The notes under the pieces: generated by a model
What the model saw: only the letters and a program-made list of their open reading frames with translations
What the model was told of the DNA's origin: nothing
Database searches by the model: none
In this document: one piece after another, positions 1,915-59,445 of the stretch
Layout of the letters: each line of letters opens with the position of its first letter
Numbering within the stretch: position 1 is the first letter of the stretch
Made by a program: the position numbers and the translations under genes
Source: Halonotius pteroides
Lineage (GTDB): Archaea; Halobacteriota; Halobacteria; Halobacteriales; Haloferacaceae
DNA: 64,000 nucleotides
Direction of reading: 5' to 3'
Assembly (NCBI RefSeq): GCF_003605635.1
Contig: NZ_QMDW01000002.1
Location: forward strand, 124,001-188,000

Positions 1915-2856
1915 ATGCAGATACTCGTCACCGGCGCGACCGGGTTCGTCGGCGGCAACCTCGTCGACGCCCTGCTGGCCGCCGACCACGAGGTGACGAT
2001 CCTCACCCGAAGCCGCGAGCGCTACGACGGGCCCGAAGCGGTGCGGGTCGTCGAGGGCAACGTCTTGGAGCCAGGCAGCTTCGATGACGCCCTCGATGTC
2101 GACCTCGCGTACTATCTGATCCACTCGATGGGTGCCGGCGGCGACTACGCCGAACGCGACCGCCGAGCGGCCCGCAACTTCTCAGAGGCCGCCGGCGACG
2201 CCGGTCTTGACCGTGTTGTCTATCTCGGTGGGCTGGGGGCCGACGGCGATAATCTGTCGCCACATCTCCGGTCGCGCCGGGAGGTCGAGCGCATCCTTGG
2301 GCTCGGCGAGTACGACCTTACCGTCCTCCGGGCGGCGATCATCGTCGGCGCGGGCTCGATCAGCTTTCAGCTGATTCGGCAACTCGCCGGCCGGCTGCCG
2401 GTGATGATCACGCCAAAATGGGTACACACCAAGTGCCAGCCGATCGCCATCGACGACGTGATCGGCTATCTCGTCGGCGTCGCCAAAACCCCAGAGACCG
2501 CCGGCGAGACCTACGAGATCGGCGGCCCCGACGTGTTGACCTACGCGGAGATTCTCAGGGAGACCCGCCGCCAGCTCGGTGCCCGGCTCCGGATCGTCCC
2601 GGTGCCGGTGTTGACCCCGCGGCTGTCGTCGTGGTGGATCCGCTTTGTGACCGATGTCGACCCTGCGGTCGCCCGCCCGCTGATCGACGGCGTCAAAAAT
2701 TCCGTTGTCGTCACCGACACCCGAATCCAAGATATCCTTCCCCGCGATCGCCGCCACTTTGAGGCGGCGGTCGCCGACGCGCTTGCCGACGAGCCGGCGA
2801 CGACGCCGACCCCGAAGGCACGCCTCGGGCGACTGTTCCGCGGGAGCAAGCCATGA
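1915..2856 (+). CDS. NAD(P)-binding SDR-family protein (NDUFA9-like / atypical SDR)
   Basis: A 313-residue Rossmann protein. Its N-terminus is the dinucleotide-binding motif VTGATGFVGGNLVDAL (GxxGxxG), and the segment TRSRERYDG would contact the adenosine ribose. YYLIHSMG and the GGLGADGD region resemble the atypical SDRs related to complex I subunit NDUFA9. This subgroup lacks the classical Tyr-x-x-x-Lys pair, which is not evident here. The substrate is unknown. No close functional partner is visible; the next gene starts 67 bases downstream. Confidence 0.88.
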   Translation: MQILVTGATGFVGGNLVDALLAADHEVTILTRSRERYDGPEAVRVVEGNVLEPGSFDDALDVDLAYYLIHSMGAGGDYAERDRRAARNFSEAAGDAGLDRVVYLGGLGADGDNLSPHLRSRREVERILGLGEYDLTVLRAAIIVGAGSISFQLIRQLAGRLPVMITPKWVHTKCQPIAIDDVIGYLVGVAKTPETAGETYEIGGPDVLTYAEILRETRRQLGARLRIVPVPVLTPRLSSWWIRFVTDVDPAVARPLIDGVKNSVVVTDTRIQDILPRDRRHFEAAVADALADEPATTPTPKARLGRLFRGSKP

Positions 2857-2923
2857 GCGGCGTCGGCGAGACAACATCGAAACCGATAGACACGAGTGTG
2901 TGGCCGCCAAGCAGTGGACACTG

Positions 2924-3646
2924 ATGGTCAAGGAGTACGGCGACACATGGGTCTATGAGGGGATTGTCGGCGGACTACCGGGGATTGAACTCTCAAATAC
3001 CCATGCTGTCGCAATCCAGTTTGGGCTGTTTCAGGTTGGGATCGTGGTGTTTGCGGCGATCTACGATCTCTGGTCGGCCGCCCTTGCCGGCACGGCCGCT
3101 GTCGTCGTCGCGACGGTCGGTAGCGTCGCCATGCACCGGTTGGGCGTGCGAAATCGATCCATCGACGCGCCGCCGGTATACTACCGGCTGTTGTTTGGCT
3201 CAAGCATCGAAGTCGTGCTGTCGGTGCTGGCGTTTATTGCGCTTATTACGCATCTGTTTGCGTTTGACATCCAGTCACCGGGTGAGCCGTTGATCACCAC
3301 GCTGTTCGGCACCGAGCCGCCGGTGATCGTCGTCTACCTCGTGTTGTTGGTCGGGTGGGATCTCTGCTATCGGATCGGCACCTCGTGGTGGGCCGCTGTC
3401 GTCTCGCTGTGGCGCGCACTCACAATCGCCTGTGAGCCGGATGCTGAGAATCAGTTCGTTCGGATCGATCTGGAAAACGTCGCATTTGCCTCTTCGCAGG
3501 TTATCTTGCTGCCATTTCTTCTTGAGCAGCCGGTGTTGCTCGTTGCTGTCAGCGGTCATATCGTGGCCGTTGCTGTTGTCTCGGCGGCGTCAATCTGGCT
3601 TACGCGGACAGCCGACGACCCAGTTTTGACGACGACACGCGACTGA
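2924..3646 (+). CDS. Haloarchaeal polytopic membrane protein of unknown function
   Basis: A 240-residue protein with about six hydrophobic segments, for example near residues 30-50, 52-68, 92-115 and 130-150, and two near the C-terminus. I chose ATG 2924 because the N-terminus MVKEYGDTWVYEG is then coherent. An upstream in-frame GTG at 2900 is possible, and the long extension further upstream overlaps the preceding gene and is basic and low-complexity. No catalytic motif is recognisable. Similar membrane proteins appear widespread in haloarchaea, but I cannot assign a function. Confidence 0.75.
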   Translation: MVKEYGDTWVYEGIVGGLPGIELSNTHAVAIQFGLFQVGIVVFAAIYDLWSAALAGTAAVVVATVGSVAMHRLGVRNRSIDAPPVYYRLLFGSSIEVVLSVLAFIALITHLFAFDIQSPGEPLITTLFGTEPPVIVVYLVLLVGWDLCYRIGTSWWAAVVSLWRALTIACEPDAENQFVRIDLENVAFASSQVILLPFLLEQPVLLVAVSGHIVAVAVVSAASIWLTRTADDPVLTTTRD

Positions 3647-3743
3647 GACGAACCGGCGACGCCGATGAGAGCAAGGAATCGACAGCAGGGGTGCTACGCG
3701 AAGTAACACCCCATAGAAGGTGTGGCCGCGACACCCCGGCAGA

Positions 3744-4033: not shown

Positions 4034-5104
4034 GTGGCGCGACCGCTTCGCTTCCGGTATGCCCCCGGTCGGTGGTCGAAACCCCGGCTTCGGTCAGACG
4101 TACTGCAGCCGCTGGATGACAACCTCGGCGCGACGATGGACGGGCCGTGGTACCGACCACCGAGTGGCTACGACGCGGTTCGCTTTGCGATAGACAACGG
4201 CGATACCGCGCTGTTCATCTGGACTGACGGCGACGACGGCCCTGCAGGCGTCGATGGCGGCCCTAGCGGCTACTGGCTTGGGAACACCGAAACGCCGAGC
4301 AGCCTCTGGCGGACGGAAAAATACGGGTTCAGCGAGGTTCCCTACCCGGTCTCACGGTGGGCTGAACGCGAGTTGTTGGCGCAGCTACGGATGGAATCGC
4401 CGTGGCTGGGGCCCTACGACCACCTTGCGTGGTTCTTTCTGCCCGTGTTCCTCTCGAAGGATGGCCGTGAGAGCACCCGGTCGTTTTTCATCGATCACGC
4501 CGCCGGCTTTCCGAATGCGAGCGCCGAGGAAGCACTCCAGCACTACGAGGCTGTCCTCCACACCGGCGCACTCGACGGGTACCGCGAGGAGATGGCCGGC
4601 AAGCTCGGCACCTCCGAGCAGCTTGATCTCACGCGGATGACCGCCGCAATGGGCGAATTCAACGTTGCGAAGCTGTTGGTCGAGGCGGGCTATGAGATCA
4701 CCCCGGAGATCACGGTGACGACCGGCCACGCAATCGATTTCCGTGCCGAACCGGCTGATAACGACGACAACGGTGCGGTACTTGTCGAGGTGACCCGCCC
4801 GCTGCCGCCGGATCGACGAGCAGCAAACGCCGCAACGACCGCGATCAAAGAGACGGTCAAAACGAAGACCGATGGCCAACTCAACGCCCACGCCGGCGGC
4901 ATCGTGCTGTTGGTCGACTGTTCGTCGTTTCCTGACCCGGATTGGCAGCCGATCATCGCCGAGCAGCCGGAGGTCGGCCACCGGCCAGCAGTTGTTTTCC
5001 GCCGCCGCCCGGACGGAACCACGACGGGCTACCGAACGGGGCGACTCCCACTGTCGCTCGACGATGCCATCGATTTCACCACCGACAACGAGCCGGCAGG
5101 GTAG
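4034..5104 (+). CDS. DUF5784-like haloarchaeal protein
   Basis: A 356-residue soluble protein starting at GTG (MARPLRFRYAPGRW). Conserved-looking blocks are LDDNLGATMDGPWY, the central FFLPVFLSKDGRES and a C-terminal domain with HAIDFRAEP followed by GAVLVEVTRPLPP. That D...(E)VE arrangement recalls the PD-(D/E)xK nuclease fold, but an obvious catalytic Lys is absent, so the resemblance is weak. I believe it belongs to DUF5784, found in haloarchaea only. The function is unknown. Confidence 0.7.
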   Translation: MARPLRFRYAPGRWSKPRLRSDVLQPLDDNLGATMDGPWYRPPSGYDAVRFAIDNGDTALFIWTDGDDGPAGVDGGPSGYWLGNTETPSSLWRTEKYGFSEVPYPVSRWAERELLAQLRMESPWLGPYDHLAWFFLPVFLSKDGRESTRSFFIDHAAGFPNASAEEALQHYEAVLHTGALDGYREEMAGKLGTSEQLDLTRMTAAMGEFNVAKLLVEAGYEITPEITVTTGHAIDFRAEPADNDDNGAVLVEVTRPLPPDRRAANAATTAIKETVKTKTDGQLNAHAGGIVLLVDCSSFPDPDWQPIIAEQPEVGHRPAVVFRRRPDGTTTGYRTGRLPLSLDDAIDFTTDNEPAG

Positions 5105-8797: not shown

Positions 8798-8816
8798 AGA
8801 CCTAGGCTTTAGGTCT
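8798..8816. promoter_or_regulatory. Perfect 7-bp inverted repeat at kinase promoter
   Basis: AGACCTA-GGCTT-TAGGTCT lies between a TATA-like gttataca (8791-8798) and the kinase ATG at 8823. It overlaps the metal-regulator-like box at 8809-8822. The position, on the expected transcription start, fits a repressor operator. Confidence 0.5.
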
Positions 8817-8822
8817 CCCTAA
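8809..8822 (+). promoter_or_regulatory. DtxR/IdeR-type metal-regulator box (TTAGG-N4-CCTAA)
   Basis: The sequence is TTAGGTCTCCCTAA, ending on the base before the ATG of the histidine kinase. It has the same 5+4+5 inverted-repeat architecture as the boxes at 56956 and 57024. Binding here would block transcription initiation. The link to iron is inferred from the known DtxR-family consensus. Confidence 0.55.
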
Positions 8823-10061
8823 ATGAGAGGGGAAGTTGAGCAGCTTGTTGGGATACTATTTCGGACTCTCGCTGAGGAAGGCTATACAGAGGCCCAAACA
8901 GCCCTTTTAGATACATATCAGTCCAAAGCAGATACTGACAGAGAGGAACTTGCCGAAGAGCTCTTTGTCGAAGTCGTGACCAATCTGAGTTACCATCTTG
9001 AGACTGAAACGGAGGTTGAGGTTCTCGTCACAGCGATCGAACAGCTCCTAAGTTGGTTCTCAAGTCTCGTTGAGGCAGCACCCGTCGCGATTCTGGCCGT
9101 CGAGACAGACGGACAAATTGAGTTTTGGAACGACGGTGCTGAGAGAGTGTTTGGCTGGAGTAAATCTGAAGTTCACCAACGGCCGTATCAGGACGTGTTC
9201 GCGGCCTCGTCGGATGAGATGGAGCCACATCTTGCGCAACTGCAGGACGGAAAGCAACTTACCGGCCTTGAGACGCAGCATCAGCACAAAGATGGATCGA
9301 TTCGTGACGTACGGATCTGGGCAGCCCCGTTTCGCACACGTCATGAACGGTTTGAGGGAGCAACGTTCGTAATAAGCGACGTTACTGAACAAAAACAACG
9401 CGAACAACGTCTGTCCGTTCTCAACAGGGTGCTGCGGCACAATATCCGAACAGACGTAAATATTATTCACGGCCACCTGAACCAGTTGGCCGAGACTGTT
9501 GATGATACGACCGAACATCTGCGAGTGATGGAAGATCGGCTCTCCAATATTATCCAGCTGAGCGACGCCGCGCGGCATATTGAGCAGTTGCGCGACGAAG
9601 GCGAGGACGGCCTGACGACGATTGAGTTGGAATCTGTGATACAGGAGCGTGTGACCCGACTGCGGAAGGAATCGGCGAATGCAACGATTAGAACCACACT
9701 CGCGGAATCGACCGCCGTCGTAGCACACGAGTTATTGCCATATGCACTGGATAATATCTTAGACAACGCGTTAGAGCACAATGACGCAGAAACCCCGTTA
9801 GTTGAGATTGCCGTGTCGACAGGAGAAACCGCCGCCAGTGGACAGACGACCGTGAGTGTGGCTGATAACGGCCCTGGGCTCCCCGATCATGAACAAGCGG
9901 TGCTTACCTCCGAGGAGGAAACGCAACTCAACCACAGTAGTGGGCTAGGGCTGTGGTTGACTCGGTGGATTGTTCGAAATTCAAGCGGCACCCTCTCAGT
10001 TAATAAGAGCACGTGGGGTGGAACTCGAATAGAGATCCGGTTGCCGACACAAACAAGCTAG
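8823..10061 (+). CDS. PAS-domain sensor histidine kinase with a DUF7551-like N-terminal domain
   Basis: A 412-residue soluble kinase with no membrane segments. Residues 1-70 form a helical domain (LFRTLAEEGYTEAQTA) resembling the central domain of the gene at 55871-56887. Residues about 78-190 are a PAS domain (APVAILAVETDGQIEFWND). The phospho-acceptor helix is VLNRVLRHNIRTDVN. The ATPase domain has an N box (DNILDNALEHND), a G1 box (VADNGPGLPD) and a G2 box (SSGLGLWLTRWI). No response regulator is adjacent, as is usual in haloarchaea. The metal-regulator-like box upstream suggests metal-dependent expression; the PAS ligand is unknown. Confidence 0.9.
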   Translation: MRGEVEQLVGILFRTLAEEGYTEAQTALLDTYQSKADTDREELAEELFVEVVTNLSYHLETETEVEVLVTAIEQLLSWFSSLVEAAPVAILAVETDGQIEFWNDGAERVFGWSKSEVHQRPYQDVFAASSDEMEPHLAQLQDGKQLTGLETQHQHKDGSIRDVRIWAAPFRTRHERFEGATFVISDVTEQKQREQRLSVLNRVLRHNIRTDVNIIHGHLNQLAETVDDTTEHLRVMEDRLSNIIQLSDAARHIEQLRDEGEDGLTTIELESVIQERVTRLRKESANATIRTTLAESTAVVAHELLPYALDNILDNALEHNDAETPLVEIAVSTGETAASGQTTVSVADNGPGLPDHEQAVLTSEEETQLNHSSGLGLWLTRWIVRNSSGTLSVNKSTWGGTRIEIRLPTQTS

Positions 10062-46966: not shown

Positions 46967-49900
46967 TCACATGAAGTCCGCGATCCCGCTTTGTTTGTTT
47001 TTATCATTCTCGAAGATTGATTCCAAGGAACGCTCAAGAATGCGAAGTCGTTGTTTGGTGTACTCTCGACAGCCGAACCGATCAGCGACCGCGATGGCGG
47101 TATCCATGTACTTGTTGACCGATCCCTCGTGAACGGTGAGGTTGACACGACCGCCGCACTCCCGGCAGTCCCCCGACAGCGGCATTCGGCGGTAGCTCTC
47201 TCCGCAGTCGAGACACCGGGTTTCCTGCCGGGAGAACGCCCGGAGGTTGCCGATCAGATCGGGCAGGAAATGATACTCGATGACCCGTTCGGCGACGTCG
47301 GTTTCGTCGACCGCCCGGAGCTTCCGCGCCAACTCCAGTTGGGCATCCATCTTATCCATCATCGAATCCAGCGTCTTGTACGCTGAGAGACTTGGCCCCA
47401 TATGGATATTCGTCGTCGAGTGGGTATGCTCGAAACCGTGGTACTGTTCGGTCGTATCGAGGGTGTCCTCACCGGTCGTGATGTCGACGGCTTCGGGGTC
47501 GGCCATCTCGCGGGTCGCCTCGTAGAATTCGCGTGGATAGTTCGAGACGATATCCATGTTGTGGGCCTCGTCGTCGATCTCGGTGGGATCGACCCGCGAG
47601 GACATGACCAAAGGCGCGTCCATGCGGCCGCCGCGCTGATCGGGTAAGAACTGTCGAGAAAAGTTCAAAAGACCGTCCATCAGCAGCATGACGCAGTCCT
47701 CGTCACCATCACATTGATCTTCTGACATATCATTCACGATAAGTGAATGGGTGTCAGCAACGGTGAGATTGTAGGTGTATGCTGTCTCTGCCTCGACGTA
47801 CTCCATCGAGTTGACTGGGTCGACCAGATATTCGCCACTGCCCCCATCGAATACCTCTCGCTGTCTCGGTGCGATCGATTCGGCTTGCGTCTGGAGTTGC
47901 TCGTCTTTTCGAGTCAGGTGGAAACCGACCTGCTCTGCAAAGGCGGCAGCATCCTGTGAGCTGATTTTGACGACATAGCTCCCGGCGGACTCCGCCGGAT
48001 CGTCTTCGTCGTAGAACTCGGGGAACTTTTTGGATAACGCAACCGGATCCTTCGTTGTCACGCGACCCATGATTCCGAGTCGACTGAGTAGTGCCAGCAG
48101 ATCCTCTTTCAATTCTCGGCTTACTGTCGTGGCGTCTACTTTGAGTGCCCGTGCGTCGACGGATCCGTCACCGCTGAAATAGCCACTGAGGTATGCCGAG
48201 ATAATCGGCTTCGGCGCGTTGAAAATACACTGTGGCACGCGCTTCGTCTCCGCGAAGATACCCGCGTCTAACACCGTATCGAAGAACGTCCGCGGCAACC
48301 GCCCCGAGACGGTCACTTTCGCGTCGTTCTCGCGGTACGGCTCGACGCCGAACTCTCGCTCGAACACCTCAATGTAGAATTCACGCGCTTCCGTCTCTGT
48401 CCCGCAGATCGTCGTCTGGTGGATCGTCCCCTTCGGTGTCTCCTGTTCGCGGGCGAATCCCTCTGCGGCATAGTATCCCAGCAGCGTCGCAACGTCTTCG
48501 GTGAGATCCACCATGCGGTTCATTTCAGCGGAATCCCGTTTCATGCCAAGCGTCACGTCATCGGGGACGAAGTCGAGAACGGCCTCGACCGAGTCGCACA
48601 GTTCCAGCAGGATATGCGCCGGCACGCTCCCTCGGTAGAGATAGTTGCTCAGCGTTTTGTGCGACATCTCGAAGTACCCGGCTGTATGCTTTAGCGGGTA
48701 GAACTGCCCGTCCCAGTCGGCGGCCAGTTTCGTCTCAAAGAGATCATAGAGCGTGTCCTTCTCGATGCCTTTGATCATCAACCGCTCGTTGTCGACAGTA
48801 TCGGCTCGGATGAACTCCGCTAACAGATCGAACCGCTGTGGCTCCGCGGACGGCTGCACGGTATCGAGATGCTCGGGTGTGATGAGCGAATCCGCCGAGG
48901 TAAGCTCGCTGGCACGCTTCGTTCGCCGTTCGCCGTCCGCGAAGACCTGCATCTCATGATCCGGTGTCACGGTGAGTTCCCGCCCGCTCCGGGTTTCGAT
49001 CTCAACCATGTGATCGGGCGCGGGATGCTTCGAGAGAGCTTCAACCGGCTTCGTCACGAGCGACCCGTTTTCGTCGATACTGGGCACCGAAACCGCGCCG
49101 TCGATCTCCTCGATCAGCGTTCCGAAGTCGTCCTCGCGGGGATCATCTAAGCGGTCTTCAACAACCGCTCGGATCGTTTCGTGGTGCCACTCGCCAGCCT
49201 CGTCTTCGAGCCAGAGTTTCGTTTCGGGGTGGAAACAGTTCCGGCGTTTCGCGGCGTGAAAGTACGGATGCGCGTAGCCGACAGCCGCACTCGTAAATCC
49301 GATCACACGGCCGACAACTGCGGCACTCGTATGCGGGGCCATCCCGAAAACGAGTTCGCCGACAAGGTCGTCGCGGTCGTCGATATCGTAGAACGCCGGC
49401 AGCCCGTAGAACCGCTCTAAGAGGTCGTCGACGAAGTCGGCCGTCTTGATCATGTGTTCGGCCGCGCCATCCGAGAGAACGATATCCTGTACCTTGAGTT
49501 CGACCACCTGATCGTCGTGCCGCAGCGGGTCGCCGTCGATGTCGGTCTCGTAGCCGAGGCCGCGGAAGTGATCGGCGGTCACGTCCAACTCCTCAGGTTT
49601 GACCGCCGTAACCGGGAGGTCGGTCATGTCGTAGCGGACGGTGCCGTCCTTAAATGAGGAGACACCGTGTTTTGCCCGGAGAATCCCTTTCTCCATCGGT
49701 TCGGGCGTCTTGTTCGCTGATGACAGCCCCTTGACGCCTTTCAGGATCTCGAAGTTGCCTTCGCGTTCGTTGATCTCGTCGAGCGCGTCGTGGTACTCGG
49801 CGTTGAGATCGACGGTCTCCCAGCCGGCGGCGTCAACCTCGCGGCCACAGCTCGGGCATTCAACGCGGCCGGCCTCATCGGGCTCACAGACGATCTCGCA

Positions 49901-52144
49901 GTCCTCGCATTCGTAGTGGGGTTCGGTGTGGCTGCCGCAGTCTGGACACTGGAGTTTGAACGTCGCAGCGTCGCAGTCGGGACACCGCCGTTGGCCGATC
50001 TGCATGTCGTGGACGCCGCGGCGACCCTGTTCATTCATCGTCGTCGCAGCCTTGGCAACATCGCGCTGATTGCCGCCGGCTTCGGTGATCGGGAACAGCG
50101 TGTGGACGGCCGGCGAAAGGTCGCGCTTTTCGGATTTCTCGGGGCGGCCCATCCGCGCGCCGATCCGGGTCGGGGCACGCTCCCGGATCTCGAATGGCGC
50201 AGCCTCGTTGACCGCCTTGATCGCGTTGTCGCCGCCGTCGGACTCGCGGGCTGCCGCTGAGAGGTCGTCCCACAGTTTCGTCAGATCGTCGTCAAGGCCG
50301 AGCGACAGTGCGAGCGGTTTCCAGTCGGGGATTGCGATGGTCTCCTCGCATTGGTGGTGGCCGACGAGCAGCGTTTCCAGCGTCTCCCGAACCGACCCGG
50401 TACGCTCGACGACGAGATGGCCATCCTCGGTTTCGGCGTCGGCGACCGCCGCGGCCAGCGCCTCGAAATCGTCGACCGAGATATCGTGCCAGAGGTAGGT
50501 GTACGTCGGGTGCAGCGGGCAGTCGTACTCGGTGGCCCACTCGATGGCTTCGGCAGCCGAGGGGTTCTCAAGGTCGACTCGTGGGTCGTCCTCGAGGGCC
50601 TGCACGTCCGCGCCAGCGTCGTCGAACTCCTGTACCCACCATTCGGGCGCGTACGCGGCGGGCGCGAGCGGGTGGTTGTTCTCGACGAACTCGCCGTAGT
50701 TGACGAGGTATTCGCCGAGATCGAGGATCTTCTCGACGCCGTTGCGGAGTTCGAGTGCCTCCTCGGGGTCGTCGATCCGCCGCACCTCGCCGGTCGCCAG
50801 CCGGACGGTCGGCCCCTCGATGGAGTCGACCGGAATAACCCCGGCGGCTTTGCCCGGTCGTTCGGTTTTGATTTGGGTGCCCGTCGCCAGAAAATCGTCG
50901 ATGATGTGCATCGTCGCCGGGTGGACGCCCGCGGTCGCAAAGCCGAGGTTTCGCGCTCGGCCGTATCGAAGCCGGAACCCACCGGCCTCAGACGGATGGC
51001 CGAAGACGGGCCGGCCGGCGATCAGATCGAGCAGGTACTTCGATTTCGGTTCGACGCGCGGCGGGCCGGCGGGGGCATCGACTGCGGGGTCGTCAGCATC
51101 GCCTTCGGCGTCGTCGGCGTCGCTGTCGTCGGCAGCATCCTCGTCGCTGTCACTGCCGTCATCGTCGGAATCGGCTGGGTCGTCGCTGTCTTTGCCGATG
51201 GTGCCGTCGATCAGATCCTGCAGCCACGGCCACTCGACCTCATCGAGTTGACGGGTGTAGCGTTGGATCTTTGGAGCTTTCAGCGCGATCCCCTCGGCGG
51301 CGACGAGGCACATCCCACCACGGGCGGAGTTGGTGTCGATGCGGTCGAGATCGCGGTAGCCCGAAACCTCCTCGTCGCCGGTCGCCTCGCCGTCGAGCAT
51401 GATCGGCATGTTGGTGGCGATAAACCGGCTCTCCGTGTCCTTCGGCGAGTACTGAAGACCGGTCTCCTTGTCGTAGAGGTTGATCTCCTCGACGTAGCGT
51501 TCGATCTCGTCGTCTCGGCCCTTGTATTCGGCGAGGCCGAGGATGCTCCGGGTGTAGTCGGCGACCAGCACCGAGAGGGCCTGGGCGGTGCCGCCCGCCG
51601 AGCGGATCGGTCCAGCGTAGTAGACGTTGACGAACTCGGTGCCATCGTCGTTTTCCAACAGTTCGACGCGGTCGATCCCCTCTATCGGGGCAGCAACGAC
51701 CCCCTCTGTGAGGAGGGCGACAGCGGTTCTAACCGCGCCTTCGATCTTGCCGGCCTTGCCTTCATAGTCGCCGACGCGGCCCTCCGCGAAGTCCTTGGCG
51801 AGTTCGAGGGCGGCCTCCTCGCGGGACATCTCGCCTTCGAGTTCGCGGACGCGTTCGGCGACGCCGGGGATGCCGAGGATGTTCTCGACGCGATCAGCCA
51901 TGTCTTGAGCGATCGGGATCTCGACTTCGGGTTCGGGATCCTTGCCCTGGCCCTTGGCGCGTTCGGCAACAGTCATCGCCTCGTCGAGACCTGCTTCGAG
52001 GCGGTCGAAATACTGCTCGTCTTCCGGCCGCATCGGTGTGCGGTTGGACTCACCGGCCTCGCGGCTCTCGTCGCCGGCGTCACCTGCGTCGCTCTCGGGA
52101 ATGTCACTATCGCCGTCGCCGTCCGGATCACTCGTTTCGCTCAC
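46967..52144 (-). CDS. polC: DNA polymerase D large (catalytic) subunit DP2 with intein
   Basis: A 1725-residue precursor of the replicative polymerase D, about 1217 residues after intein removal. Recognisable DP2 parts include VYYAGPIRSAGGTAQALSVL, SARGGMCLVAAEGIALKAPK, GARMGRPEKSEKRDL, zinc-binding CPDCDAATFKLQCPDCGSH, and CDGDEDCVMLLMDGLLNFSR with catalytic aspartates. The intein sits just before that Cys. A second zinc motif (CLDCGESYRR ... CRECGG) and a terminal QSGIADFM, probably a PCNA-interacting peptide, complete it. An acidic insert of some 50 residues near residue 330 is halophilic. The GTG start overlaps the upstream PPC gene (GTGA). Confidence 0.97.
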   Translation of the reverse strand: MSETSDPDGDGDSDIPESDAGDAGDESREAGESNRTPMRPEDEQYFDRLEAGLDEAMTVAERAKGQGKDPEPEVEIPIAQDMADRVENILGIPGVAERVRELEGEMSREEAALELAKDFAEGRVGDYEGKAGKIEGAVRTAVALLTEGVVAAPIEGIDRVELLENDDGTEFVNVYYAGPIRSAGGTAQALSVLVADYTRSILGLAEYKGRDDEIERYVEEINLYDKETGLQYSPKDTESRFIATNMPIMLDGEATGDEEVSGYRDLDRIDTNSARGGMCLVAAEGIALKAPKIQRYTRQLDEVEWPWLQDLIDGTIGKDSDDPADSDDDGSDSDEDAADDSDADDAEGDADDPAVDAPAGPPRVEPKSKYLLDLIAGRPVFGHPSEAGGFRLRYGRARNLGFATAGVHPATMHIIDDFLATGTQIKTERPGKAAGVIPVDSIEGPTVRLATGEVRRIDDPEEALELRNGVEKILDLGEYLVNYGEFVENNHPLAPAAYAPEWWVQEFDDAGADVQALEDDPRVDLENPSAAEAIEWATEYDCPLHPTYTYLWHDISVDDFEALAAAVADAETEDGHLVVERTGSVRETLETLLVGHHQCEETIAIPDWKPLALSLGLDDDLTKLWDDLSAAARESDGGDNAIKAVNEAAPFEIRERAPTRIGARMGRPEKSEKRDLSPAVHTLFPITEAGGNQRDVAKAATTMNEQGRRGVHDMQIGQRRCPDCDAATFKLQCPDCGSHTEPHYECEDCEIVCEPDEAGRVECPSCGREVDAAGWETVDLNAEYHDALDEINEREGNFEILKGVKGLSSANKTPEPMEKGILRAKHGVSSFKDGTVRYDMTDLPVTAVKPEELDVTADHFRGLGYETDIDGDPLRHDDQVVELKVQDIVLSDGAAEHMIKTADFVDDLLERFYGLPAFYDIDDRDDLVGELVFGMAPHTSAAVVGRVIGFTSAAVGYAHPYFHAAKRRNCFHPETKLWLEDEAGEWHHETIRAVVEDRLDDPREDDFGTLIEEIDGAVSVPSIDENGSLVTKPVEALSKHPAPDHMVEIETRSGRELTVTPDHEMQVFADGERRTKRASELTSADSLITPEHLDTVQPSAEPQRFDLLAEFIRADTVDNERLMIKGIEKDTLYDLFETKLAADWDGQFYPLKHTAGYFEMSHKTLSNYLYRGSVPAHILLELCDSVEAVLDFVPDDVTLGMKRDSAEMNRMVDLTEDVATLLGYYAAEGFAREQETPKGTIHQTTICGTETEAREFYIEVFEREFGVEPYRENDAKVTVSGRLPRTFFDTVLDAGIFAETKRVPQCIFNAPKPIISAYLSGYFSGDGSVDARALKVDATTVSRELKEDLLALLSRLGIMGRVTTKDPVALSKKFPEFYDEDDPAESAGSYVVKISSQDAAAFAEQVGFHLTRKDEQLQTQAESIAPRQREVFDGGSGEYLVDPVNSMEYVEAETAYTYNLTVADTHSLIVNDMSEDQCDGDEDCVMLLMDGLLNFSRQFLPDQRGGRMDAPLVMSSRVDPTEIDDEAHNMDIVSNYPREFYEATREMADPEAVDITTGEDTLDTTEQYHGFEHTHSTTNIHMGPSLSAYKTLDSMMDKMDAQLELARKLRAVDETDVAERVIEYHFLPDLIGNLRAFSRQETRCLDCGESYRRMPLSGDCRECGGRVNLTVHEGSVNKYMDTAIAVADRFGCREYTKQRLRILERSLESIFENDKNKQSGIADFM
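47714..49237 (-). other. Intein in PolC with LAGLIDADG homing endonuclease (508 residues)
   Basis: Residues 970-1477 of the precursor. It starts with Cys (CFHPETKLWLED). Block B is TVTPDHEMQVFADG. Two dodecapeptide endonuclease motifs are LLGYYAAEGFA and YLSGYFSGDGSVD, both retaining acidic residues, so the endonuclease may be active. The C-terminal splice region AYTYNLTVADTHSLIVND ends in SEDQ, followed by +1 Cys of CDGDEDC. The last residue is Gln rather than Asn, as known for archaeal polymerase-D inteins. A helix-turn-helix-like stretch (FEMSHKTLSNYLYRG) may aid DNA binding. Confidence 0.93.
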
Positions 52145-55870: not shown

Positions 55871-56887
55871 TCACGGACACCCCGGCGCATCGTCGGCAAC
55901 CGACGCACTCACCAGGCCGCGAGGTGCGGCTTCACCGACTGGGACAACGCGAAACCGCCAACCTGTTGGGCGTGTCGCAACATCGACCGCAACCGGCTGC
56001 CAGTCGGTAGCCATCCGGTACAACTCGATCACGACCGGTAATGTCGGTAGCTGGCCGCCGTACGGCGAAAACGCGTAGCCGGCAACCGCGATGAGTACGG
56101 CCCGCGTCCCGGTTGATCGGTGCTGGAGCCACGGGGAGTCATGGTACGCCCCAACAACCCCCTGTTCCTGAAGCCGGTCAAACACCGCTGTCACCGTGGT
56201 CACGTTGGTCTCTGTGGCGGTGGCGTCGGCAGCGGATGGCAGCCGATCGGCAGCCGCCGCCATCACCGCGGCCTGGTCGCAAGGAGACAGCCGGGTCGAC
56301 AACACTGTCGCCATACTTTCCAGTAGTCGAAGACAGAGGCCGTCAGCTGTCGACTGCTCCTCGGCATGGTCAAGATAGGCGTCCATCACAGCCGTTTCGG
56401 CTGTATCGTACCCCTCGGCAGCCAATGTCTCGAAGACCGCGGCGGCGACATGATGGCAAAACTGCACGAGCGGACGGGTGGCTGTCGTCGCCCCCGAGGC
56501 GGGGTCAGTTGTAGCAGAACGCCACGGGGCTCTGTCACACCCATCTGCTGTTGGGTGGTCATCTGCGTCGTCGGTGGAGGATGTCGTCGCGTCAGCGGTG
56601 GTCGTCGCTGTGTGTGACTGCCCGGCAAGCGGCTCAACTGTCGAGGGGTAGCCCTGACAGACAACGATATCATGTTGCGGGAGCGTCGGATCGTACTGCC
56701 GGAGGGCGTTGCGGTACTGTGTTGTCGCACGTGCGGCTGTCCGGGCGATCTGGCGGGTCGGAAACCACAACCCGGCAGCCGGCACCGGCTGCTCGGCGTG
56801 GCGACTACAGACGAGTGTGTACTCGCCGTCGTCGACTGCGAGCGATTCGATATGGGCGCGAAGGTCACGGAGCATGGGGCCAAGCAT
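55871..56887 (-). CDS. Unknown haloarchaeal protein (DUF7551/7552-like) with domain shared with a histidine kinase
   Basis: A 338-residue soluble protein. Residues 1-80 form one domain (MLRDLRAHIESLAVDDGEYT to DIVVCQGYP), followed by a Thr/Asp-rich linker to about 140. Residues 141-210 (VFETLAAEGYDTAETAVMDA) resemble the N-terminal domain of the kinase at 8823. The C-terminal part has FDRLQEQGVVGAYHD. It is divergent from the copper lipoprotein gene, with three DtxR-type boxes between them. I recall such proteins as a haloarchaeal DUF without assigned function; metal regulation is inferred. Confidence 0.75.
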   Translation of the reverse strand: MLGPMLRDLRAHIESLAVDDGEYTLVCSRHAEQPVPAAGLWFPTRQIARTAARATTQYRNALRQYDPTLPQHDIVVCQGYPSTVEPLAGQSHTATTTADATTSSTDDADDHPTADGCDRAPWRSATTDPASGATTATRPLVQFCHHVAAAVFETLAAEGYDTAETAVMDAYLDHAEEQSTADGLCLRLLESMATVLSTRLSPCDQAAVMAAAADRLPSAADATATETNVTTVTAVFDRLQEQGVVGAYHDSPWLQHRSTGTRAVLIAVAGYAFSPYGGQLPTLPVVIELYRMATDWQPVAVDVATRPTGWRFRVVPVGEAAPRGLVSASVADDAPGCP

Positions 56888-56955: not shown

Positions 56956-56969
56956 TTAGGTTAGCCTAA
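56956..56969. promoter_or_regulatory. DtxR/IdeR-type box 1
   Basis: TTAGGTTAGCCTAA, a perfect match to the TTAGG-N4-CCTAA arrangement and to the left part of the bacterial DtxR consensus. It is 69 bases upstream of the divergent gene at 56887. Confidence 0.8.
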
Positions 56970-56987
56970 AACACATAACCCTGTTGT

Positions 56988-57001
56988 TTTGGTCGGCCTA
57001 A
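56988..57001. promoter_or_regulatory. DtxR/IdeR-type box 2 (degenerate left arm)
   Basis: TTTGGTCGGCCTAA matches the box in the right arm and four of five bases in the left arm. It is spaced 32 bases from box 1 and 36 from box 3. Confidence 0.65.
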
Positions 57002-57023: not shown

Positions 57024-57037
57024 TTAGGTTGGCCTAA
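57024..57037. promoter_or_regulatory. DtxR/IdeR-type box 3
   Basis: TTAGGTTGGCCTAA ends five bases before ATG 57043 and would cover the transcription start of the copper lipoprotein gene. The TATA-like tcttattg (57014-57021) lies just upstream. Confidence 0.8.
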
Positions 57038-57042
57038 ATTCT

Positions 57043-59445
57043 ATGGCACACTCACGACGGCGGCTGTTGCAGACGACAGGCACAGTACTTGCAAGCGCGG
57101 CTCTCGCCGGCTGTAGCAGTACCGACAATCAGGCCGACAGCGGTGGCGAAGCGTCGATCGCAGCGGCCGACCTTGGCGTCGTTGCCGAATGGAACGCGAT
57201 CCGCACCCGACTCCGTGATCCCGTGATCCTTGGGCACGCTGAGGAGTACGCTGCGGGTGAAGGCGTCGTCGGCGACATCTTTGAGCGGTTTGAGATGGCG
57301 TCAGGACAGAACAATGCTCACGAGACCCTTGAGGAAACCGACAAAGAGCACTACGAGGGGTTCGAAACCGCATTGGGCGACCTCCGGAGCGCGCTTACGG
57401 ACAATGATCTCGATGGGGCCCACGATGCGATGAGAGCGGCTGATGAACAGCTTCGCGGCGCGCAGGCCGCACTCGCCGGCCAGGAGACGGTCAAACAGCT
57501 TACCGCGCTCGTAATGGGTGCACATATCAAAGACGTTGAGGTGCTTCTCGCCGCGGAGGCGTACGACGACGCCAGCCTTGAGTACAACCAGATCGGAACC
57601 AAATTCCAACAAAAGGGGCTGTACGATATGATCGCTGCGGCTGACACTGAAGCTGCGGATGGGGTTGTCGACGCTCTTGATCGGGCGGCAACTGCTGCCG
57701 AGGCGGCAAACGCAACCGACGCTTCAGCTGCCGGTTCGGACGCGTTTGAGGCGGCAACACAGGGGTTGCATGCGGTCGCGAACGCCAACGTCGCCGACGC
57801 CGCCCACATGGCTGCCCTACAGGGGTTGGGCTGGGATGCGGCCGCGCTGACGACAATCGGTGGCCCCGGTACCGATTACGCACACGCTGCCGCATTGAAC
57901 CTGTATCGTGCACGCGCCTACGACGCACACTGGATCGCAGCCAACGGCAGCACCGACACAGCGGCGACGATGGCACGCGATGTGTTCGCTCACTTTGAGG
58001 GGGCCCGTACACACGAAGCGCTAGAGGAGGCAGACCGCGACGCCTATGAAACGTTCGAGGCCGGACTTGAATCGCTACAGACCAGGATCGACGACGGCGA
58101 TACCGGCGGGATCGACGACGCTGTTGCAACCATCGATGAAAATCTCCGTACCGGAATCAAGCGCCTTGCTGGCGGCGACGCCCCGCTGCTGCAATCCGGA
58201 TTTTTCCGTGCTCGCTTTGCGGATGCGTATGAACGCTACCGGCAGGGCGAAGCGGCCGCGGCGGCGACGATCGCTGAGGGGCTCTTCGGGCGGTTTGAGG
58301 CGAACGAGCTGAACTTCCACGAAACACTTGAGGACACAAGCGAGTCGCTGTATGAAACCTTCGAGGAGGAACACCTGACCGCACTCGTCACCGCCTACGA
58401 AGACGACAACAGCAGCGCGGTCGACACCCACCATCAGGGCGTGTGTGACGCGCTCCTCGAGTTTGAAGCCGAACACAGCGCGGCGCTTGCAAGCGGTGCG
58501 GAAGCCGGTTACATGGGGGCTCGTGGCTTCGATGCCGCCGGCGTCGCCGCCCTCGGGGATGCCAGCCGAGCGAGCACGATCGTCAGCGACGCCTTCGCCC
58601 ACTTTGAGAACGGGGCTGCCGGGTATCACGAGGCCATCGAGGCAGCCGATGTGGAACGCTACGAGTCATTTGAGGCCGCTCTCGGGGCGATTCAGACAGC
58701 AGTTGACGACGGCGGCGACGTGTACGCCAATGCAAAAGCGTTCAACGACGAGGCCGTCGCCTCCGCGTACGCGATCGCTGAATCTGGGGGTGCAACCGCA
58801 CCCGCTGCGGCGATGATGGGTGATGCCTTCGCCCACTTCGAACAAGCCGAGGTACACGAGGCACTGGAAGAAGCCGATCATGATACCTATGAGGGCTTTG
58901 AGGCCGCACTTAACTCTTATCAGTCCGGCCTTGAGTCAGGAGACACTGAGCCGGTAGCGCGGTATGCCGCGATGGCCCGTACCGGTGGGTTCGCTGTCGC
59001 CGGCGCGGTCGACGCCGCGCCGTCCGTTGACGCCGCGGCTGCTGATGACGGAGGAGAGGCCGAGGAATCAGCCTACGAGGGCGGGCCGAACATTGTCGAG
59101 GGCGTTCCTGACGACGCCGACCACGTCGTTGAAGCACAGGCCGTCGTCTTTGAGCCGGCGGAGCTGACAGTACAGCAGGGTGAGACGGTTGCCTGGAAGT
59201 ACGCTGCTGGAGACGCACACAACGTTGTCGCCGACGAGGACAAGATCCCGGACGACGCAGAGTACTGGGCTTCCGGCGGGTTCGACAGCGAAATGGCCGC
59301 CAGAGACGGCTGGGAGAACGGTAAGGGGGCTCTCCACCGCTCGGAACAGGTGTACGTCCACACCTTCGAGGCAGCCGGCACACACGAGTATCTCTGTGTC
59401 CCACACGAGGCCGCCGGAATGGTCGGCAAGGTCATCGTCGAATAG
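57043..59445 (+). CDS. Tat-exported lipoprotein with five His/Glu repeats and C-terminal blue-copper domain (DUF5059-like)
   Basis: An 800-residue surface protein. The Tat signal SRRRLLQTTGTVLASAALAG ends at a lipobox Cys, residue 24. Five repeats begin near residues 78, 313, 413, 516 and 594, each with the pattern FxxFE...HExLExxD...YExFExxL (for example HEALEEADRDAYETFEAGL). Residues 685-800 are a plastocyanin/halocyanin fold with copper ligands in DAHNVVAD and YLCVPHEAAGM (His, Cys, His, Met). I believe the repeat region is DUF5059. Three metal-regulator boxes at its promoter point to iron- or manganese-dependent control. A role in metal capture or oxidation is inference. Confidence 0.9.
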   Translation: MAHSRRRLLQTTGTVLASAALAGCSSTDNQADSGGEASIAAADLGVVAEWNAIRTRLRDPVILGHAEEYAAGEGVVGDIFERFEMASGQNNAHETLEETDKEHYEGFETALGDLRSALTDNDLDGAHDAMRAADEQLRGAQAALAGQETVKQLTALVMGAHIKDVEVLLAAEAYDDASLEYNQIGTKFQQKGLYDMIAAADTEAADGVVDALDRAATAAEAANATDASAAGSDAFEAATQGLHAVANANVADAAHMAALQGLGWDAAALTTIGGPGTDYAHAAALNLYRARAYDAHWIAANGSTDTAATMARDVFAHFEGARTHEALEEADRDAYETFEAGLESLQTRIDDGDTGGIDDAVATIDENLRTGIKRLAGGDAPLLQSGFFRARFADAYERYRQGEAAAAATIAEGLFGRFEANELNFHETLEDTSESLYETFEEEHLTALVTAYEDDNSSAVDTHHQGVCDALLEFEAEHSAALASGAEAGYMGARGFDAAGVAALGDASRASTIVSDAFAHFENGAAGYHEAIEAADVERYESFEAALGAIQTAVDDGGDVYANAKAFNDEAVASAYAIAESGGATAPAAAMMGDAFAHFEQAEVHEALEEADHDTYEGFEAALNSYQSGLESGDTEPVARYAAMARTGGFAVAGAVDAAPSVDAAAADDGGEAEESAYEGGPNIVEGVPDDADHVVEAQAVVFEPAELTVQQGETVAWKYAAGDAHNVVADEDKIPDDAEYWASGGFDSEMAARDGWENGKGALHRSEQVYVHTFEAAGTHEYLCVPHEAAGMVGKVIVE

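Follow-up and report, generated by a model that had tools for sequence, protein, structure and literature searches.

A haloarchaeal surface protein that joins repeated probable metal sites to a blue-copper domain under iron-box control

The locus described here raises the question of why a haloarchaeon carries a blue-copper domain at the end of a long row of helical repeats on its cell surface. It lies in a stretch of 64,000 nucleotides from Halonotius pteroides (assembly GCF_003605635.1, contig NZ_QMDW01000002.1, positions 124,001 to 188,000), called the window below, and consists of one gene whose product belongs to DUF5059 (PF16502; 715.4 bits against a cut-off of 25 over residues 46-660 in a Pfam scan), a Pfam family of unknown function that exceeds its cut-off in 99 of 391 sampled haloarchaeal genomes. 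There is good support that the gene encodes a surface protein under iron-box control, with an intact blue-copper domain and several probable metal sites. The metal is likely iron, as judged from the regulation of the gene and the type of ligand its sequence offers, and the protein probably helps the cell to catch iron under scarcity. The fuller explanation that we favour, a membrane-anchored iron-capture protein induced by iron starvation, whose copper domain handles the electron of the iron and preferably does so by ferroxidation, is tentative, and we place it a little short of an even chance.

Conservation was counted in an alignment of 57 rows, comprising 51 long and 6 short forms of the protein. 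The gene and its parts are:

57043-59445, plus strand: gene for the DUF5059-cupredoxin lipoprotein, 800 aa, ATG start
57043-57114, plus strand: twin-arginine translocation (Tat) signal and lipobox, residues 1-24 (LAGC, Cys24)
57163-57480, plus strand: unit 1, residues 41-146, site E84 H93 E97 Y104 E108, complete in 57/57 rows
57481-57783, plus strand: unit 2, residues 147-247, same fold, site lost in this species, complete in 27/57 rows
57784-57855, plus strand: helix A of unit 6, residues 248-271, with the invariant D265, separated from helices B-C-D by units 3-5
57856-58167, plus strand: unit 3, residues 272-375, site E319 H324 E328 Y335 E339, complete in 51/51 long rows
58168-58476, plus strand: unit 4, residues 376-478, site E419 H426 E430 Y437 E441, complete in 49/51 long rows, with 2 gaps
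58477-58791, plus strand: unit 5, residues 479-583, site E522 H529 E533 Y540 E544, complete in 51/51 long rows
58792-59010, plus strand: helices B-C-D of unit 6, residues 584-656, site E600 H605 E609 Y616 E620, complete in 56/57 rows
59011-59082, plus strand: linker, residues 657-680, modelled with low confidence (predicted local distance difference test, pLDDT, below 50 at 664-675)
59083-59442, plus strand: plastocyanin-like blue-copper domain, residues 681-800, ligands H726, C785, H788 and M793

The core of the argument is a set of residues that recurs along the helical part. The pattern FE-x(4-10)-HE-x-[LIMV]-E-x(5-7)-Y-x-x-[FVY]-E was found five times, starting at residues 83, 318, 418, 521 and 599, versus 0 in 20,000 shuffled versions of residues 1-680. 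A first-pass annotation of the sequence had proposed repeated metal sites built from a conserved FE...HExLE...YExFE set. The sites held up as candidates, a nearly invariant E/H/E/Y/E set being present in five units (complete in 49 to 57 of 51 or 57 rows), and the set did so in its five strict copies. Its full invariance did not: in some units a fraction of the sequences have Asp instead of the second Glu (that of HE), and the Glu in 'YE' varies, which leaves a conserved core of E, H, E, Y and E together with two Phe. An Asp in helix A is kept as well (D59 in 56/57 and D265 in 57/57 rows). On average the motif Glu were identical to those of the window protein in 93% of the rows, versus 44% for the other Glu of the helical part. 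In a separate alignment of single units F, E, H, E, Y and E were invariant in 26 hand-picked rows out of 70 (units 1-5, no unit 6), but its four unit 2 rows all have intact sites, and the conservation claim rests on the full 57-row counts instead. In the model the site residues sit at one end of each bundle, at the turn that leads from helix B via a short helix to helix C. Three further His residues of units 3 and 4, H281, H444 and H463 (57883-57885, 58372-58374 and 58429-58431), are invariant in 51/51 long forms and are missing, together with the inserted units, from the 6 short forms; they constitute a possible second site.

Unit 2 shows what happens when the set is lost. In the window protein the whole set is gone (Q189, Y194, A198, A205 and V209 stand in its place) and the unit is still modelled as a confident bundle by AlphaFold2. 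H, E, Y and E of this unit (Asp being allowed for Glu) were all kept or all lost in 35/51 sequences (26 and 9, respectively), versus a mean of 13.9 and a maximum of 22 in 10,000 permutations, a difference that kinship among the sequences inflates. Another 10/51 sequences lack only the His, eight of them with Tyr instead, and in 3/51 the sole loss is that of the first Glu. Since the loss is concerted and the bundle is retained, the site residues would serve function and not fold; they look like one functional site rather than a folding requirement. A quick tree suggested at least four independent losses of the unit 2 site, which may come down to three because the window gene seems to be a mosaic: units 1 and 2 share 75% and 55% identity with Halovenus aranensis and units 3-5 only 41-46%, whereas units 3-5 share 59-66% with Haloarcula mannanilytica and units 1 and 2 only 47% and 23%. 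This mosaic of unit identities across 57163-59010 makes intragenic recombination likely.

The first-pass annotation had spoken of a five-fold repeat. Five strict motifs are indeed present, but the number of repeats is six, one of which (unit 2) is degenerate in this species. The six segments, with unit 6 joined from its two parts, were all alike in a profile comparison (15 pairs, E 1.7e-12 to 1.5e-25) and thus constitute six homologous four-helix-bundle units. In the full-length AlphaFold2 model, built with 57 sequences, the helical bundles form a row that is followed by a beta domain (mean pLDDT 90.2, predicted template modelling score, pTM, 0.62), and a second model of units 3-4 (residues 271-478) reached a pLDDT of 96.1 and a pTM of 0.91. 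In the natural short forms of about 500 residues helix A6 is contiguous with B6, so these consist of units 1, 2 and 6 only. Most simply, the long form is thus a short form with three inserted units, a deletion in the reverse direction being possible too. The location on the surface was in agreement with the earlier proposal: the protein is a lipoprotein with a twin-arginine start, the lipobox LAGC and Cys24, and a twin arginine with a lipobox-like [AGST]GC was present in 57/57 aligned rows, the starts of which had been picked to fit a lipobox.

Which metal, then, would these sites hold? The promoter points to iron, as the 87 bp that precede the start hold three TTAGGnnnnCCTAA-type boxes, of which two are exact and one has a mismatch:

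56956-56969, plus strand: iron box 1, TTAGGTTAGCCTAA, exact
56988-57001, plus strand: iron box 2, one mismatch, starting 36 nt ahead of box 3
57024-57037, plus strand: iron box 3, TTAGGTTGGCCTAA, exact, ending 5 nt ahead of the ATG

The window holds 4 boxes with at most one mismatch versus 0.21 expected, and the 3.0-Mb genome has 11 exact boxes versus 2 matches to the reversed pattern that served as control. All 70 homologues counted possess a box with at most one mismatch within 100 nt of the start, most often at about -17 to -22 (an exact one in 66), and 62/70 have box pairs spaced 33-37 nt apart; among neighbouring open reading frames (ORFs), identified with a simple ORF caller and in part perhaps false, only 18/895 have a box within 100 nt. 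Control by a metal box, as put forward on first inspection of the sequence, is therefore borne out by a cluster of three sites that is conserved in homologues. Ten of the 18 box-bearing neighbours were scanned: four proved to be FecCD or Peripla_BP_2 genes of iron ATP-binding cassette (ABC) systems near the DUF5059 gene, in Natrinema hispanicum and Halobellus clavatus, and six were not iron genes by name. Elsewhere in the H. pteroides genome one exact box ends 4 nt before the gene of an FbpA-like ferric-binding protein (best PDB match 7w3w, an iron-utilization periplasmic protein, E 1.3e-50), one stands at a binding-protein-type ABC permease gene, from which a Gluconate_2-dh3 gene diverges, and one falls within the 5' end of what was called as an ABC ATPase ORF, so that the true start of that gene is probably further in. 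A Glycos_transf_2 gene and an RGP-family gene in the same cluster are further neighbours of exact boxes. Two DtxR-type regulators exceed their cut-off in this genome, and the gene shares its promoter box with iron-transport genes, as a putative member of a haloarchaeal DtxR-type iron regulon would. A 'ferR regulon signal' is reported for the fhu genes in the available part of a study on haloarchaeal iron starvation (PMC11349517).

Expression of the homologue in Haloferax volcanii varies with that of iron genes. According to the accessible parts of two papers, HVO_1228 (DUF5059) was up by 4.2 log2 in an endA CRISPR interference strain, alongside genes of the siderophore cluster and of Fe(III)-ABC systems (PMC7714728), and HVO_1228 (hcpE) was down by 2.92 log2 in a table that also contains iucA and the gene of an Fe(III)-binding protein (PMC9051519). 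This co-variation, and the presence of boxes of the same type at iron-transport genes, argue against the units binding Cu, Mn or Zn in place of iron. We regard that option as quite improbable, even though EfeM prefers copper, iron and zinc in vitro, as far as the available text of the paper goes (PMC9174327), and some units weakly match PF16785, a family of which the structure 3u8v aligns with a unit at Z 10.1.

The second half of the question concerns the copper domain. The C-terminal cupredoxin recognised in the first-pass annotation was confirmed by a match to Copper-bind (plastocyanin/azurin, PF00127; 64.2 bits against a cut-off of 21.2, residues 696-800). Its best solved relatives are plastocyanins (2plt, VIA Z 15.1 over 92 residues, 1.0 A, 41% identity), and the positions of the type 1 copper ligands are kept (H726, C785 and H788 each in 57/57 rows, M793 in 55/57). 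More specific cut-offs were not reached, neither that of the NCBIfam halocyanin domain (TIGR03102; 49.1 bits versus 93.8) nor that of NCBIfam plastocyanin (69.1 versus 87.85). The domain thus has the fold and type 1 copper ligands of plastocyanin and halocyanin and is unlike them in being fused to a helical repeat of 620 residues. In two short forms (L139:9871-11379 and L143:9650-11158) Gln or His replaces the axial Met, which would shift the potential of the copper.

The retention of the ligands at these frequencies indicates selected electron transfer, and this speaks against a protein in which the bundles only capture or buffer iron at the surface while the copper domain docks to a partner or scavenges copper. 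Such a protein would be in keeping with the five intact sites per chain and with the short forms that have fewer units, which look like a scaling of capacity, and we consider it rather unlikely. Electron transfer could also be the entire function, with the copper carrier substituting haem proteins under iron shortage and the units acting as a metal-free spacer or docking scaffold. Swapping iron for copper is a known logic, and the copper domain is plastocyanin-like. This option would leave both the five nearly invariant E/H/E/Y/E sets and the concerted loss of the unit 2 site in a retained bundle unexplained, and it is improbable.

More difficult is the direction of the electron. In a ferric reductase the copper domain would take electrons from the respiratory chain, reduce Fe(III) held by the bundles and release iron from its chelators in the Fe(II) form that a ferrous transporter could take up. 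For the reduction of chelated Fe(III), type 1 copper is usually too strong an oxidant. Moreover, a box-bearing gene of this genome encodes a relative of ferric-binding proteins, which need Fe(III), and the composition of the sites would suit retention of Fe(III). The iron boxes and the co-variation with siderophore genes fit a reductase equally well, and halocyanins are described as membrane electron carriers in the part of the literature available (PMC6267482); on balance we judge a reductase unlikely.

The favoured ferroxidation mechanism would proceed in the opposite direction. Each intact set would hold a single iron ion where helices B and C meet in an elbow, in a site that would suit Fe(III) because of its hard oxygen ligands and single His. 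The units would catch ferrous iron, which would then be oxidised with the type 1 copper as electron acceptor, and the copper would pass the electron on to the respiratory chain or to another halocyanin. The recipient of the ferric iron would be the ABC system with the FbpA-like ferric-binding lipoprotein whose gene has the same box or, in species equipped with them, hydroxamate-type ABC systems. Its several sites would let each chain store iron locally, or relay it, beneath the S-layer.

A number of points weigh against this iron-capture reading. The direction of the electron in the mechanism rests on the potentials of blue-copper proteins. For several of the 11 exact boxes the adjacent gene has no obvious link to iron, and neither the permease nor the ATPase with a box is assigned to iron by NCBIfam cut-offs. 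DUF5059 does not exceed its cut-off in 292 of the 391 haloarchaeal genomes, including two of the same genus, so it is encoded by an accessory gene. IucA/IucC was present in 37/99 genomes with DUF5059 and in 73/292 others, a weak association (p 0.02, uncorrected for kinship), and had no match in the H. pteroides genome. No cluster of neighbouring genes was common to more than 16/71 loci (window included), in a comparison of clusters without profile annotation that a lineage-limited operon partner could escape. Among solved structures units 3-4 had no significant fold relative (best Foldseek E 0.34), and their best VIA Z of 12.3 is in the range of unrelated bundles. Finally, in the accessible portion of the H. 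volcanii iron-starvation proteome study HVO_1228 is not among the 19 proteins that changed at least 10-fold, nor is it named in the main text (PMC11349517).

Is the protein, then, an EfeO by another name? The first-pass annotation had called it analogous in logic to EfeO/imelysin systems and different in architecture. The difference in architecture was evident from the lack of both an M75 profile match and the motif GxHxxE. Of the analogy, the mix of ligands and the overall logic stood, and membership of M75 did not, as the profile, the motif and the partners are missing. As described in the parts of the papers available, EfeO and EfeM are extracytoplasmic four-helix bundles of an iron uptake system, in EfeO beside a cupredoxin (PMC9174327, PMC3143127); EfeO joins this cupredoxin to M75 (PMC9174327), and the proposed Site III of EfeM (Tyr82, His126, Glu129, Glu189 and Asp190) has a ligand mix like the E/H/E/Y/E set of the window units (PMC9174327). 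The differences are that the cupredoxin stands at the opposite end in the window protein, and that EfeO/EfeM have a Site III between two bundles and an acidic Site IV, whereas the window protein has six units, each with its own motif. Membership of M75 (PF09375) was rejected, since no match at E<=0.1 was obtained in the Pfam scan of the protein, nor anywhere in the genome; GxHxxE occurs 0 times, the units carrying HxxxE instead. As regards the imelysin fold (paired bundles with the site at their interface), 3n8u appeared only at a Foldseek E of 1.1 and a probability of 0.18. In the 391 haloarchaeal genomes neither M75 (one sub-threshold match, E 5.5e-4, in one genome) nor the EfeU permease partner FTR1 exceeded its cut-off, the same search for FTR1 being positive in 4/14 control genomes. 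For this reason 'EfeO-like' denotes an analogy and not membership: by analogy, the window protein may work like EfeO but is no EfeO.

Other bundle families were considered as well. SMBP (PF16785, PDB 3u8v) is a four-helix bundle of the size of one unit and aligned over 83/83 residues with 19% identity, at a Z of 10.1 that is within the background range for bundles. Membership was not found, as unit 3 of the window protein scored E 0.057 (14 bits versus a cut-off of 29); PF16785 matched 3/26 units at E<=1, the best at 0.00019. A ferritin-like di-iron protein was discarded (no such Pfam match at E<=0.1), and ExxH occurs in the window protein only at 441, 475 and 610 and is not a repeated feature of the units. 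A c-type cytochrome bundle was dismissed too, CxxCH being absent from the window protein. The structure matches of the full model were all taken by the copper domain, and the model of units 3-4 matched generic bundles only (NarQ, PsbQ, catenin, cytochrome c' and SMBP), none of them outstanding; the absence of a named family among such matches counts as no evidence against one. Binding of haem or of a siderophore via the conserved His and Tyr would be consistent with the His/Tyr pairs that ligate haem in known haemophores and with the cytochrome b562 and c' bundles among the weak matches. Given that three nearly invariant Glu per site would be unusual for haem, that CxxCH is absent and that the resemblances to bundles are at background level, we consider it very improbable.

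Among the 14 control genomes DUF5059 matched only Haloferax volcanii, and a unit profile run against 392 genomes of the phylum recovered 19 haloarchaeal genomes and two weak others, one of them a membrane protein by eye without the site motif and the other at E 7.2e-4. The nearest named relative is from a Halovenus metagenome-assembled genome (80% identity in the best segment), and a member is also present in Halobacterium salinarum DSM 3754. In Haloferax massiliensis (L134:8001-11401) the gene is split over two overlapping frames and is therefore broken or misassembled. To judge from the portions of the papers at hand, hcpE of H. volcanii (HVO_1228, PMC9051519) and hcpG of H. mediterranei (PMC9240420) belong to the same family and have the same blue-copper fusion, and hcpG is given there with DUF5059 and without a function (PMC9240420). 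The halocyanin names clash in these texts: the name hcpG stands for HVO_2150 in one paper and for the H. mediterranei DUF5059 gene in another (PMC8305020, PMC9240420, PMC9051519), and hcpE, not hcpG, is used for the DUF5059 gene of H. volcanii. Within the parts of the literature surveyed, no function is stated for DUF5059, hcpE or hcpG, and neither the anatomy of the units nor the site set, the split unit 6 or the promoter boxes were found in what is written on DUF5059 halocyanins. The family is thus already catalogued; what is new is the anatomy, the site set and the evidence for iron control. The last of these may in part already be published, and we claim no priority for the assignment to a regulon.

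The box scan also pointed to some other genes. An exact box pair with a geometry near that of the DUF5059 promoter precedes a 23-aa ORF (start 4493; L165:4442-4561, C27 of the H. pteroides genome) that is followed by a tRNA-Val gene (4593-4668), and possibly marks an iron-regulated small peptide or RNA. The ORF has weak matches in 4/19 other genomes (E 0.8 to 2), with no exact or one-mismatch box in the flanking stretches. On C28 of the same genome an exact box (3673-3686) is located just before a minus-strand 54-codon ORF (L167:3500-3664), beside which lies a Dps/ferritin-like gene (2836-3384). In the window itself an exact box at 8809-8822 ends directly before a PAS/histidine-kinase ORF (8823-10061) that matches DUF7551 weakly and below threshold; the gene directly upstream of the DUF5059 gene (55871-56887, minus strand) belongs to that family. 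The window further contains, at 46967-52144 on the minus strand, a 1725-aa ORF that, we presume, resembles the archaeal DNA polymerase D large subunit with an intein-like insertion.

Taken at its widest, the favoured explanation would make DUF5059 a haloarchaeal iron-uptake protein independent of EfeUOB, with up to six bundles that each have their own iron site, act as a relay or store coupled to a type 1 copper and deliver ferric iron to ABC importers and not to FTR1, in a modular architecture that gains, loses and re-inserts sites; we regard this extension as possible and somewhat doubtful. For Halobacterium salinarum JW5 iron uptake was measured and the responsible gene not identified, in so far as the available text tells (PMC11349517). 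The analysis offers a testable function for a family of unknown function in about a quarter of the sampled haloarchaeal genomes (99/391). If the sites bind iron, the family would represent a second, apparently unrelated way of joining helical iron sites with an extracellular cupredoxin, and the occurrence of three or six units in nature would be a built-in experiment.

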